Below, piece after piece: positions 783-5,215 of a stretch of 40,372 nucleotides of DNA. This DNA comes from Lachnospiraceae bacterium (GTDB taxonomy: Bacteria > Bacillota > Clostridia > Lachnospirales > Lachnospiraceae). Where the stretch lies: the NCBI GenBank assembly GCA_017437065.1, contig JAFSBX010000102.1:1-40372 (forward strand). Reading direction: 5' to 3'. The notes under the pieces were generated by a model, which was not told where the DNA came from, did not search any database, and saw only the letters and a program-made list of their open reading frames with translations. Both the position numbers and the translations under genes were made by a program. Every line of letters begins with the position of its first letter. Position 1 is the first letter of the stretch.

Positions 783-917
783 TTACAATGTTCTATAATC
801 AATTTTATATACCAAAGAATCAAATCCTACACTTCCATCTGTTTTTTCATAATAAGAATCTCTCTCGTAGACCATTCCTAGCTTTTCCATGACGCGACGA
901 CTTTTATAATTCTCCTC
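783..917 (-). pseudogene. GNAT acetyltransferase, C-terminal fragment
   Basis: Immediately after the stop codon of the HEPN gene, and in the same frame, the minus strand reads 44 codons to a TAA. They begin EENYKSRRVMEKLGMVYE. The N-x-x-S-R-R-V-M-E-K-L-G-M/F stretch is the classic last helix and strand of GNAT N-acetyltransferases, where acetyl-CoA contacts lie. The rest of the domain (about 120 residues) is missing and there is no start codon with a ribosome site. This is best read as the 3' stub of a GNAT gene whose 5' part was replaced or deleted when the cassette on its right was inserted. Confidence 0.65.
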
Positions 918-1778
918 CTAATATAAATCTTCTATCGGTGGTAATACTTCTCCAATAAATATACTAAATCCGTCATCTGAAGTTCTGTACTTATGCCATG
1001 CTCTCTTGGTTTTTAAACTACAATATACAAATTGCAGTGATGCCACCATATCCACTGTTGGAGTAAACACATATTCTTTACCTGTTGCAACCAGTTTATC
1101 ATTCATCCACCATGTTATTTCATAAAAATCTTCTGGGAAATTAGCATCAACTTCAACCCAAACTTTATATAGCTCTCCAGGCCTCAATTTTTCATTGTTA
1201 TATGGTAAAGAAAGTTTCTCCGTTTTTGTTTCATCCCTATAACCACATCTTCCCCATGAATCCTCTACTTTAATAAAGAACGGAACATTATACTCTTGTT
1301 CTTTTCCAATTCTAACATAATATGCTTTATAACAATCTATGAAATCATGAGAATAACATATTGCTTGCTCTGCCTCTCTATAAGAAATAGGATTACCATG
1401 ATACAGTTTATTTCGTATGTTCTTTAAAACCTCAATTCGATTTCTCACTTCTTCCTTACCAGAAAAATTATTCTCCAAAATTCCCTTAAACAGTTCATTA
1501 TAGAATGTATCTTTACATAAAAAATAAGCAATGTCTTCCATTAAAATAGCATCAATTTTTCGTGGAAATCTTTTAGGATTATCACGCATTCTATCTGAAA
1601 TAGTTTTTAGAATATCATTTTTAATTAAACTTTCTCCATTCTCAAATTTGTATTCAAAGTATTTCTTTCCATATCTTTCAACAAGCTTATCATTTATAAT
1701 ACGCCTAGACCAATGTTCTAACGATTCCATCGTTTCTTTCGCACTGTTTCGTATTTCTGTTTCACTAAATCTAATCAT
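918..1778 (-). CDS. HEPN-domain protein with C-terminal beta-sandwich
   Basis: A 286-residue protein. I chose ATG at 1778 over the upstream ATG at 1793 because GGAGAGGT sits 5 nt before it. The N-terminal two thirds is mainly helical and carries R-N-K-L-Y-H at about residues 122-127, fitting the R-x4-6-H active site of HEPN domains (Swt1/DZIP3-like type), which are metal-independent RNases in many toxin and defence systems. From about residue 160 the sequence turns beta-rich, with alternating hydrophobics and W/Y residues, and looks like an immunoglobulin-like or substrate-recognition domain. It is the last gene of a three-gene minus-strand cassette, after a PD-(D/E)XK nuclease and a GAF membrane protein. 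No MNT-type nucleotidyltransferase antitoxin is adjacent. HEPN call fairly sure; biological role inferred. Confidence 0.7.
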   Translation of the reverse strand: MIRFSETEIRNSAKETMESLEHWSRRIINDKLVERYGKKYFEYKFENGESLIKNDILKTISDRMRDNPKRFPRKIDAILMEDIAYFLCKDTFYNELFKGILENNFSGKEEVRNRIEVLKNIRNKLYHGNPISYREAEQAICYSHDFIDCYKAYYVRIGKEQEYNVPFFIKVEDSWGRCGYRDETKTEKLSLPYNNEKLRPGELYKVWVEVDANFPEDFYEITWWMNDKLVATGKEYVFTPTVDMVASLQFVYCSLKTKRAWHKYRTSDDGFSIFIGEVLPPIEDLY

Positions 1779-1829
1779 TTTGTACCTCTCCATTCTTTCT
1801 TTTGGCTTCTTTTATTAATGCAAACTTGA

Positions 1830-1959
1830 ATATGTTGACAGCATGAACTCGCTGATGTGCTGATAGGCATATGCACAAAGGCTCAGATTCCTTCAACAGA
1901 AACCTGAGCCTATCACCTTTTGTAACAGCTTAGCACATCAGCCCCTGCTGTAAACATAT
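1830..1959. repeat. 130-nt nested imperfect palindrome
   Basis: Three nested pairs of arms line up: ATATGTTGACAGCA (1830-1843) with TGCTGTAAACATAT (1946-1959), 13 of 14 pairs; CTGATGTGCT (1852-1861) with AGCACATCAG (1932-1941), perfect; AGGCTCAG (1879-1886) with CTGAGCCT (1904-1911), perfect. The whole would fold as one long interrupted hairpin in either strand. It fills the gap between the nuclease and HEPN genes. It could be a structured intercistronic RNA, an attenuator, or a miniature insertion element. Confidence 0.65.
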
Positions 1960-1987
1960 CCAATTTCCTTGCATACACTATCTGGAG

Positions 1988-2539
1988 TTAAAACAAAGAA
2001 AATTCCCTTTTTTCTCTATATATTCCACGCTCAATTAGCTCTTTAATAACGCTTATCCGAGGGCGCATTCCTCTTCCATCATATACACATCTTCCAAAAT
2101 GTTCAGATTCTTCAAGTATCATTTGAATATCAATATCATAAACTTCAAAGTAACAATCTTCTGGTGACTCATTATAAAATTTCACAAAATTAAGCCTATC
2201 CCATTTAATTTCAGGTGCAAAACTTGAAAAATCAGTCCTACCCGTTGCATATTTTATTTCAATACGATTATTTCCTTCTGGTGCATTCGGATCAAAACAA
2301 TCAAAACCAAGTCTCATATCATCAACCCTCCAATATCCCATCTTATAAGCCACTAATGCTTCTACAAATTCCGCTGGCATATTAGTTGGTCTTCCACCTA
2401 TTCTTCTTATTTTTTCATTTAAATTCATCCAATCAAAATACAGTTTCTGTAATATAAGCATATCTTCTTCTTCATATTGGATTATATTTACTGGAATCTC
2501 TCGTTCTGGAACATCTAAATAATTTTCTTTTCGTATCAT
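1988..2539 (-). CDS. PD-(D/E)XK nuclease, Bsp6I restriction-enzyme-like
   Basis: A 183-residue protein. The core reads G-F-D(80)-C-F-D(83), then E(94)-I-K(96), the spacing of a PD-(D/E)XK metal-dependent nuclease, with an upstream acidic helix residue near E60. It continues with S-F-A-P-E-I-K-W-D-R-L-N-F-V (106-119) and R-G-M-R-P-R-I-S (156-163), patterns I associate with the small Bsp6I-type type II restriction endonucleases. No DNA methyltransferase lies beside it in this window, unlike a normal restriction-modification pair. Its start overlaps the end of the GAF gene by 4 bp (ATGA), so the two are translationally coupled. Nuclease fold likely; Bsp6I kinship moderate; target unknown (DNA or RNA). 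Confidence 0.6.
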   Translation of the reverse strand: MIRKENYLDVPEREIPVNIIQYEEEDMLILQKLYFDWMNLNEKIRRIGGRPTNMPAEFVEALVAYKMGYWRVDDMRLGFDCFDPNAPEGNNRIEIKYATGRTDFSSFAPEIKWDRLNFVKFYNESPEDCYFEVYDIDIQMILEESEHFGRCVYDGRGMRPRISVIKELIERGIYREKREFSLF

Positions 2540-3450
2540 TTCAGCCCCTCCTTATCCGAAGATATAAATAATAAAACACATAATAATTCTAAATATCTTT
2601 GAATAACATCTTGATATTTATTGTATGTGGCCTCCAAACAATTTATTTTTGTACATGTTATTACCAAAACAAACTCTACACTATGTTCTACTATCAGTGG
2701 TATTGCTAATATCGATTGATATTGCCTATCATTCTCCAAGTCTACAAATGGGAAATCACGACTTCTGTTTTCAATATCACTACAGTAAATAGTTCTTTTT
2801 TCATCAAAAGCCGTTCCAACTAGAGAATCATTACCTAATCTTAATTTATCTATCGTTCCCGGTGAATGTTTAGTAGATACTAAAATAGCACATTGTCCTT
2901 GATTATCTTTCACAAAAACACTTGTATTAATTTTTGCGGTTTTTGAAAACATGTCATCTCGAAAAATATATTCAATTTCCGCAATTAATGCCTGCAATTC
3001 TGTATTGTCATATTTTTTCTGGTTCTTGAGCAAATATAGAATCTTTCTATTAACAGAATCGGTGTTGATGTAGTATTCACACTTGTTTTTAAATAATTCC
3101 AAATCTTGGTCTAGGCGTTTAATTTCTTGGTCTATTTCATCTCTTTCTTGTTCTACATCCAATATTCTTTCTTTTAAGCACTCTATCGACTTAATCAATT
3201 CATCTTTTTCTTTTCTTAAATCTTCAACTCCTAACTTTTCAATTTGCTCATCAAAACTTTCTTCTTGCATCTTAAGTTTTCTTTTTAAATTGAAAATAAT
3301 CACGACGAAAACAGAAACGATTACTGCAACTATTATACCTATAACCAAATACATATTATTTCTTTCAAAAGCATAGCATATTCCGTTAGCAATCATCTGA
3401 ATAACAAAAACACCTATGCCGCCGAAAACATCTGTTTTTTTAATATCCAT
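2536..3450 (-). CDS. membrane-anchored coiled-coil GAF-domain protein
   Basis: A 304-residue protein; start supported by AAGGAGG 5 nt upstream. Two hydrophobic segments (about 8-28 and 33-54) form a hairpin in the membrane. A long charged heptad-like coiled coil follows (about 58-122, rich in E, K, L, I). The rest (about 150-295) is a GAF-like domain, with the usual V-F-V-K-D-x-x-G opening, G-x-x-S-L-V-G-T-A-F and Y-Q-S-I-L-A-I-P-L strands. GAF domains bind small ligands such as cyclic nucleotides or sense redox state. It is the first gene of the cassette and 4 bp overlaps the nuclease start. By inference it senses a signal at the membrane and controls the nuclease and HEPN effectors. The gene lies directly downstream of rlmD with no terminator visible between them. 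Confidence 0.65.
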   Translation of the reverse strand: MDIKKTDVFGGIGVFVIQMIANGICYAFERNNMYLVIGIIVAVIVSVFVVIIFNLKRKLKMQEESFDEQIEKLGVEDLRKEKDELIKSIECLKERILDVEQERDEIDQEIKRLDQDLELFKNKCEYYINTDSVNRKILYLLKNQKKYDNTELQALIAEIEYIFRDDMFSKTAKINTSVFVKDNQGQCAILVSTKHSPGTIDKLRLGNDSLVGTAFDEKRTIYCSDIENRSRDFPFVDLENDRQYQSILAIPLIVEHSVEFVLVITCTKINCLEATYNKYQDVIQRYLELLCVLLFISSDKEGLK

Positions 3451-3497: not shown

Positions 3498-3692
3498 TTA
3501 CACCATCCCAAAATGCTTAAGCGCATCCCTAATCGCCTTTTCCTTATCCTTCGGACACTGTGGCTGTTTTGCATCCTCCTTCTGAGATTTATTATAGTTC
3601 TCCCTCTCAATAATACCGCACTTTTTCTTCACCTGCGCAATATAGAGATTTGTCACCTGCAAACCATGTTTCTCAAGCACATATTCTTTTAT
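3498..3692 (-). pseudogene. frameshifted C-terminal extension of rlmD
   Basis: The reading frame running 3692-3498 continues I-K-E-Y-V-L-E-K-H-G-L and ends K-H-F-G-M-V. From memory this is the standard C-terminal tail of Lachnospiraceae RlmD proteins (T-Y-A/Q-E-I-K ... I-I-E-R-E-N-Y-N-K ... Q-P-Q-C-P). It lies in a different frame from the upstream gene. At 3692-3697 the minus strand reads GAGAGA; removing one GA would give GAG ATA AAA and join the frames. A GTG at 3680 could in principle restart translation, but no good ribosome site precedes it. Either a genuine 2-nt slippage mutation or a sequencing error. Confidence 0.7.
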
Positions 3693-5215
3693 CTCTCCGC
3701 ATAAGTCGCCTTACTCTCTGCTGAAGTCAAATCAAGCTCATCCAGTTCCAATTCCACCTCAACATAATCATCCGCTTTTTGTTGGGACAAGAGAACTACA
3801 GTCTCGACATGCACCGTCATCCCAAACTGGTCCACTCCCCTCACTCTCTTAATCTCATACCCTCCATCACACAAAATCCTCAAATCCCGTGCCAACGTCG
3901 CCGAATCACAACTCACATACACAATCCTCTCCGGCTGCATTTTCAACATCGTATCAAGACAAACCTCATCGCATCCCTTACGCGGCGGATCTACCACAAT
4001 TACATCCGGGTGGCGCATATCGGAATCCTCCGTCTTTTCATAAAAAGCCGGCAACACTTCCTCTGCCTTTCCCACAAAAAACTCTGCATTCTTAATGCCA
4101 TTATTCTCCGCATTTTTCTTCGCATCCTCAATGGCCTGCGGGATAATTTCCACTCCGTAAACCTGCTTTGCCTTCTGTGCTAAAAACAAAGAAATCGTAC
4201 CTATACCACAGTACAAATCCCACACAGTCTCCTTCCCTGTCAGTCCTGCATAAGAAAGTGCCAGACTATACAACTTCTCCGTCTGATACGGATTGACCTG
4301 ATAAAAAGACAGCGGAGAAATACGAAAACTGATTGCCTTGTCCGTCTTCTTAAAATCATCACCTTCGCAAATTCCTATGCTGTCTTCAATCGTATCGCTT
4401 CCCCAAAGTGTATGAACCTCTTTTCCCATAATCACATTGGTTTTCTCTCTGTTAATGCTCACAGATATACTGGTCATACCAGAAATTTCTATCAAAGACT
4501 CTATCAGCTTATCCTGCTTTGGAAGAAACTTACCATCCGGCTGTTTTTTACCATTAATTACAAGACACACCATAATTTGTCCACTTGTAAAGCCTTTTCG
4601 AATTAATACGTGGCGTACCAGTCCTATTCCGGTTTCCTCATTATAGGCACTAATACCTTCATGCCTCATATATTCCAGAATAATTTCCAAAATTTCTTTA
4701 TTTTCGAAAACCCCTAAAGCACAATCCGTATTTTCAATAATCGTATGTGTTCTCCCCGCATAAAATCCTGTAATCGGATTTCCGTCTTTGCCTGTCCCAA
4801 TCGGAAACTGTGCCTTATTCCGATAGTGAAACGGTTCTTCCATCCCAACAATCGGCTCCATAACACTGTCAATAAACGTTTCATCAAATTTGCCAATGCG
4901 AATCAGATTTCCTCTAATCTTGTCCTGTTTAAACTGCAACTGCCTTTCATAGCTCATTGCCTGAATCTGGCAGCCGCCACACTGCTTATAATATGCACAT
5001 TTTGGCTCTACACGAAAAGGAGAAGGTGTAAGTACCTTCTCTAATTTCGCATAAGCATAGTTTTTTTTGGCTTTCATGATTTTCACGGAAACTGTATCTC
5101 CAATCACCGCATCTTTAACAAACAGTGCAAACCCGTCAACCTTGCCGATTCCTTCGCCATCATTTCCGATATCTTCAATTGTCACTGTCAGCACATCATT
5201 TTTCTTATATTCCAT
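3689..5215 (-). CDS. rlmD: 23S rRNA (uracil-5-)-methyltransferase, RlmD/RlmCD type
   Basis: A SAM-dependent enzyme that methylates C5 of uridines in 23S rRNA (U1939; in Firmicutes often U747 as well). The 508-residue product has an N-terminal TRAM RNA-binding domain (about 1-60), and iron-sulfur cysteines in C-A-Y-Y-K-Q-C-G-G-C plus a later D-C-A-L-G. The Rossmann core carries D-L-Y-C-G-I-G-T for SAM; V-D-P-P-R-K-G and the catalytic nucleophile in V-Y-V-S-C-D-S-A-T-L complete it. GAAGGAATA precedes the ATG. Translation ends T-Y-A-E-R at a premature stop, and the usual 60-65-residue tail is found out of frame just downstream (3498-3692). The catalytic domain is intact, so the enzyme probably still works. 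Confidence 0.93.
   Translation of the reverse strand: MEYKKNDVLTVTIEDIGNDGEGIGKVDGFALFVKDAVIGDTVSVKIMKAKKNYAYAKLEKVLTPSPFRVEPKCAYYKQCGGCQIQAMSYERQLQFKQDKIRGNLIRIGKFDETFIDSVMEPIVGMEEPFHYRNKAQFPIGTGKDGNPITGFYAGRTHTIIENTDCALGVFENKEILEIILEYMRHEGISAYNEETGIGLVRHVLIRKGFTSGQIMVCLVINGKKQPDGKFLPKQDKLIESLIEISGMTSISVSINREKTNVIMGKEVHTLWGSDTIEDSIGICEGDDFKKTDKAISFRISPLSFYQVNPYQTEKLYSLALSYAGLTGKETVWDLYCGIGTISLFLAQKAKQVYGVEIIPQAIEDAKKNAENNGIKNAEFFVGKAEEVLPAFYEKTEDSDMRHPDVIVVDPPRKGCDEVCLDTMLKMQPERIVYVSCDSATLARDLRILCDGGYEIKRVRGVDQFGMTVHVETVVLLSQQKADDYVEVELELDELDLTSAESKATYAER

Follow-up and report, generated by a model that had tools for sequence, protein, structure and literature searches.

The initial annotation described three open reading frames on the minus strand of the window, the 40,372-nucleotide stretch of Lachnospiraceae DNA analyzed here, and proposed that they form a three-gene defense cassette. 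All three reading frames were confirmed: a membrane GAF-like protein of 304 aa (gene 1; 2536..3450), identified by hydrophobicity, a profile match and a structure model; a Bsp6I-family restriction endonuclease (REase) of 183 aa (gene 2; 1988..2539); and a HEPN-like protein of 291 aa (gene 3; 918..1793). The cassette had been placed between rlmD and a truncated acetyltransferase gene, and we found the same arrangement. An rlmD-type RNA methyltransferase gene (3689..5215, minus strand) is the conserved upstream neighbor, and the tail of an acetyltransferase-like ORF (783..917, minus strand) directly abuts the stop codon of the HEPN-like gene. The names rlmD, HD, uvrB/uvrA, penicillin-binding protein and acetyltransferase are presumptive labels throughout, given by eye or carried over from an earlier finding. 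The nearby group II intron was also recovered, as a minus-strand piece at 1-85 that matches RF02001 model positions 1-85 of 170 and is cut by the contig end. The cassette is AT-rich as described, with a GC content of 0.30-0.35 compared with 0.37-0.44 over the adjacent 4 kb; GC also drops to 0.33 elsewhere in the window. A promoter scan gave 10 sites versus 14.4 in shuffled sequences, and thus no signal over shuffles, and an NCBIfam search with the proteins returned nothing over the cut-off.

Gene 2 had been read as a small PD-(D/E)XK protein with the residues D80/D83 and E94-x-K96. The motif is present, as E94-I-K96, and is supported by the family alignment, but the initial annotation missed that the protein belongs to a named restriction enzyme family, Bsp6I (PF09504). 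The PF09504 match scored 360 bits (cut-off 25) and aligned over profile positions 1-179 of 179, and PADLOC called the gene REase_II with 61 bits. The active-site residues are E60, D80, D83, E94 and K96, with the PD-(D/E)XK residues kept; in a 10-sequence Bsp6I alignment no sequence deviates at E60, D80 or K96, and positions D83 and E94 fall in the class conserved in at least 90% of sequences. A sequence search of solved structures with the REase found nothing significant.

Gene 1 is predicted to encode a transmembrane hairpin (residues ~8-53), a coiled coil extending to ~129 and a GAF-like domain (~133-302). The membrane hairpin agrees with two hydrophobic stretches, peaking at residues 8-26 and 35-53, and with two helices, 5-29 and 33-129, predicted in a low-confidence model (mean pLDDT 53). 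The GAF assignment is tentative. The predicted secondary-structure order is compatible with a GAF domain, in a model whose core pLDDT is below 50, whereas the GAF_2 match (E = 1.3e-4, 22.6 bits) lies below the curated cut-off of 28.6. Among the 50 Foldseek matches listed for this model, eight carry GAF or fRMsr in their titles, all with E above 0.001, and the top row is SpoIISA (3o6q) at a non-significant E = 0.43. Because the models of gene 1 and of the HEPN-like protein are low-confidence, we treat Foldseek rows as leads only. No SpoIISA profile matched gene 1 in Pfam at E≤1, and a sequence search of solved structures gave nothing significant. PADLOC matches were weak throughout; one of them, with 17.9 bits and E = 4.8e-4, was to a 2TM effector. 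In 397 genomes of the family the GAF profile matched in 14, namely the window's own genome and 13 others with weak matches (best E 1.3e-5); these 13 matches fall within profile positions 10-137, the transmembrane and coiled-coil parts, and were left out as GAF partners.

The frames of genes 1 and 2 overlap by 4 bp, as the ORF coordinates confirmed, and a second genome carries the same two genes. We scanned 84,980 species genomes by exact peptide patterns, a method whose reach is close relatives only, and confirmed one relative, the Lachnospiraceae metagenome-assembled genome (MAG) SIG327 (locus L006). In SIG327 the GAF-like ortholog (L006:5090-6001, 78% identity) and the REase ortholog (L006:6001-6552, 86% identity) overlap by 1 base, and in both loci the Shine-Dalgarno sequence of the REase lies inside the 3′ end of the GAF-like gene. 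The gene order is also the same: an HD-type gene, rlmD, the GAF-like gene and the REase. The alignable DNA block has 78.5% identity; it runs from window position 3781, within the last part of rlmD, down to position 1989, with no homology past the stop codon of the REase. The flanks are less similar, with DNA identities of 65% (remainder of rlmD) and 68% (HD gene). Because the pair block is more alike than the flanking genes, its transfer as a unit is suggested, and comparison of the two loci thus suggests that the GAF-like gene and the REase moved together between genomes.

Both genes of the pair are under purifying selection. The dN/dS ratio (NG86) is 0.077 for the REase (bootstrap 0.041-0.124) and 0.137 for the GAF-like gene (bootstrap 0.082-0.214). 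The HD gene gave 0.085, but with a saturated dS (3.5), and dS of rlmD was not computable.

The pair is rare and was found in two genomes only; in both known loci of this branch (2/2) the GAF-like partner sits beside the REase. PF09504 matched in 1 of 3 genomes of the genus, 4 of 397 of the family, 2 of 391 of the class, 1 of 398 of the phylum and 1 of 31 of the SIG327 genus, and each of these counts includes the window's own genome or SIG327. The sole carrier among the 3 genomes of the window's genus is that genome itself, and among the 31 it is SIG327. The SIG327 assembly is a low-coverage draft MAG, and the window's own genome carries 5.58% contamination. One PF09504 match, in genome G418 (L009/L012), was rejected: at 21 bits it is below the cut-off, it contains an internal stop, and it lies antisense within an 869-aa ORF resembling a penicillin-binding protein. 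Viral contigs queried with the GAF-like, HEPN-like and REase sequences yielded no confirmed relative, and a single distant REase was found in phages. Plasmids held no relative of the GAF-like or HEPN-like protein at E≤1e-5 and no near DNA match of the three-gene cassette.

The third gene did not behave as a member of the unit. It is absent from L006, and a query of 338 family genomes gave three matches: itself, G668 and G512. The G668 match is a chance one, with 23% identity inside a different 340-aa ORF. The G512 match is a remnant (L050:6154-6580) in which an ORF keeps residues 8-104 of the HEPN-like protein (39%) and a nearby stretch keeps the C-terminal tail, with the HEPN core missing between them; it adjoins uvrB- and uvrA-like genes, an unrelated place. 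In the window, a 194-bp gap (1794..1987) parts genes 2 and 3 and carries an imperfect, MITE-like palindrome of ~150 nt, which lies outside the pair and had gone unmentioned in the initial annotation. The palindrome escaped a simple repeat search and came to light by RNA folding, with a predicted folding energy of -69.9 kcal/mol, a raw value calculated without shuffles. One partial copy exists in the genome (G000:C83:2589-2688; 79% over query positions 29-125). The absence of gene 3 from SIG327, the single remnant in an unrelated place and the palindromic element that parts it from the pair here leave a three-gene unit unsupported, with one further locus to compare, and we conclude that the HEPN-like gene is probably an unrelated neighbor. 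The initial reading was thus upheld for the coupling of the GAF-like protein to the nuclease and lost its third member.

As for the nature of gene 3, the R-N-x-x-Y-H motif that had led to the HEPN reading is present as R-N-K-L-Y-H, and the C-terminus is predicted to be strand-rich as described. The HEPN_Swt1 match (E = 0.027, 15.2 bits) is below its cut-off of 27.5, and the model (mean pLDDT 44) is too poor for judging the fold; with this poor model no HEPN-titled row appeared among the 50 Foldseek matches listed. PADLOC had no match for gene 3, and a sequence search of solved structures found nothing significant. Its start is likely at 1778 rather than 1793, judging from the Shine-Dalgarno sequence and the start of a relative.

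We compared the pair with known Type II restriction-modification (R-M) systems of the Bsp6I type. These have a homologous REase with the same active-site residues and a similar length, but those examined encode a C5 methyltransferase (MTase) where the pair has a membrane GAF-like partner. Besides the pair we collected nine distinct REase loci; L012 was left out as spurious, and the remaining eight come from three genomes, four plasmids and one phage. In 8/8 of these relatives, all with readable surroundings, a C5 MTase lies adjacent to the REase (seven loci) or 1.1 kb away (L013), and the MTases are at least 42.7% identical to one reference MTase. No C5 MTase lies beside the pair in the window or in L006 (0/2; Fisher p = 0.022 for 8/8 versus 0/2, with the ten loci not independent). 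The REases differ as well. The two GAF-linked enzymes form their own long branch in a tree of 10 REases (support 100/99), with 23-27% identity to the methylase-linked members in the Bsp6I alignment.

We also searched both genomes for MTases, covering PF00145 (C5) and PF01555 (N4/N6-type). The window's own genome encodes 3 C5 MTases, which are 24-30% identical to the Bsp6I-linked MTase type, and has three stretches over the PF01555 cut-off, all on contig C53. In SIG327 the PF00145 search found none, which may reflect an assembly gap because this is a low-coverage draft MAG, and PF01555 exceeded its cut-off once, at a type III Mod gene next to the pair. The specificity of Bsp6I is GCNGC. This site, which may not be that of the GAF-linked branch, is not avoided in the window (94 observed, 65.3 expected) or in L006 (25 observed, 25.9 expected).

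A Type II REase that lacks a matching MTase is expected to kill its host. We hypothesized that the two genes form a unit in which translational coupling links a membrane GAF-like protein to a Bsp6I-type REase that has no recognizable MTase, and in which the GAF-like protein controls the nuclease, a reading for which we consider the chances to be about even. A narrower version, in which the REase has traded DNA methylation for control by a protein, with the membrane GAF-like protein tethering or gating an active, site-specific nuclease so that location or a signal, rather than base modification, would distinguish the cell's DNA from foreign DNA, seems possible but is more tentative. Under the two-gene model the nuclease would be active in the cell, and cleavage of the cell's own DNA would be blocked by the GAF-like protein rather than by DNA methylation. 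The GAF-like protein could anchor the nuclease at the membrane, the site of foreign DNA entry, or keep it inactive; cutting would then start when foreign DNA reaches the membrane, or when the GAF-like domain senses a ligand or a change in the membrane. From the sequences of the two loci, we infer that the pair may be a methylation-independent restriction unit in which the partner serves as tether, restraint or trigger for the nuclease. If the PADLOC 2TM effector match is right, the GAF-like protein would be an effector and not a guard. A literature search, limited in reach, found no report joining Bsp6I with GAF, or GAF with restriction endonuclease, anti-phage and membrane.

Two kinds of known system offer points of comparison. 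A survey of restriction genes lists 21 Type II restriction enzymes without a predicted paired MTase (PMC3488263). The pair resembles such solitary REases in having a Type II REase gene and no recognizable MTase, and differs from those described there by its coupled membrane partner gene, which is kept in both known loci. In Hachiman HamAB, a partner reportedly restrains an effector nuclease until it is triggered (PMC12278908). We claim a likeness of proposed working and no homology, and the partners differ, since HamB is a DNA-damage-sensing helicase and the pair would use a membrane GAF-like protein. If a pair that lacks a methylase is conserved, under selection and apparently mobile, this would point to another route to safety for such enzymes, and it would offer a small, testable case in which to study the persistence of solitary restriction genes.

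The absence of a cognate-type C5 MTase from what we found in either genome would also fit modification-dependent restriction, in which this branch cuts DNA with modified bases, the host needs no MTase and the GAF-like protein is an accessory. The deep, separate REase branch could have switched specificity. We consider this unlikely, because the REase is compact at 183 aa and colinear with the methylase-linked members with no extra domain seen, and because the coupled GAF-like gene would be left unexplained. It is equally improbable that the two genomes contain a separated R-M system, with the MTase located elsewhere, of another class or missed in the draft, and with a different role for the GAF-like protein. 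Such systems are described in the survey (PMC3488263), and the own genome has its 3 C5 MTases and the N4/N6-type genes on C53. However, those C5 MTases are just 24-30% identical to the Bsp6I type, and SIG327 has no PF00145 match and only the type III Mod for PF01555.

An inactive or silent relic, a restriction gene bereft of its MTase, is quite unlikely given the selection data. According to the same survey (PMC3488263), restriction genes that stand alone occur commonly and many of them may be inactive, but this REase has a dN/dS of 0.077, retains its active-site residues and is intact with the same partner in two genomes from distant genera. Least probable, and very unlikely in our view, is a toxin-type pair in which the membrane GAF-like protein would do the killing, in the manner of SpoIISA or a 2TM effector, with the Bsp6I-type protein as its regulator or trigger: the top Foldseek row and the weak PADLOC match point this way, and SpoIISA is a membrane protein with N-terminal transmembrane helices and a cytosolic GAF-fold domain (PMC6562991), a layout that the GAF-like protein may share, but the likeness comes from a low-confidence model, the SpoIISA profile gave no match, SpoIISA has three transmembrane helices compared with two here, and the partner is a 183-aa nuclease and not a small antitoxin of 45-56 aa.

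Returning to the proposed methylase-free restriction pair, the region behind rlmD carries restriction or candidate defense genes in some genomes, namely SIG327 and two other relatives. Downstream of the pair in SIG327 (L006:7055-10920) lie a DUF5677 gene, a small XRE-type regulator, PDC-S57 (T5orf172), which is a candidate defense gene, and a type III MTase. We compared the rlmD loci of ten relatives and scanned five proteins from two of them with PADLOC, which called PDC-M30A/M41A and type III R-M genes in L042 and a type II MTase in L039. Four proteins behind rlmD in L036, L037 and L043, searched with Pfam only, matched no defense family. The same-genus relative L036, whose rlmD is 90% identical, has a GGDEF gene in place of the pair, and L045 extends only ~80 bases beyond rlmD.

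Two minor observations concern the annotation of this region. The RE_Bsp6I model PF09504 gives 360-361 bits on the GAF-linked branch versus 22.5-52.7 bits on five methylase-linked members, one of which scores below the cut-off. Because the model fits the GAF-linked branch far better, the PF09504 seed probably already contains members of that branch. Annotation by PF09504 is lopsided as a result of these unequal scores (L004, L046). Separately, window positions 3498-3704 encode the conserved RlmD C-terminal tail in a different frame than the 508-aa rlmD ORF, so the tail is frame-disrupted here, and longer open forms of rlmD occur elsewhere, with 551 aa in L039 and 584 aa in L042.
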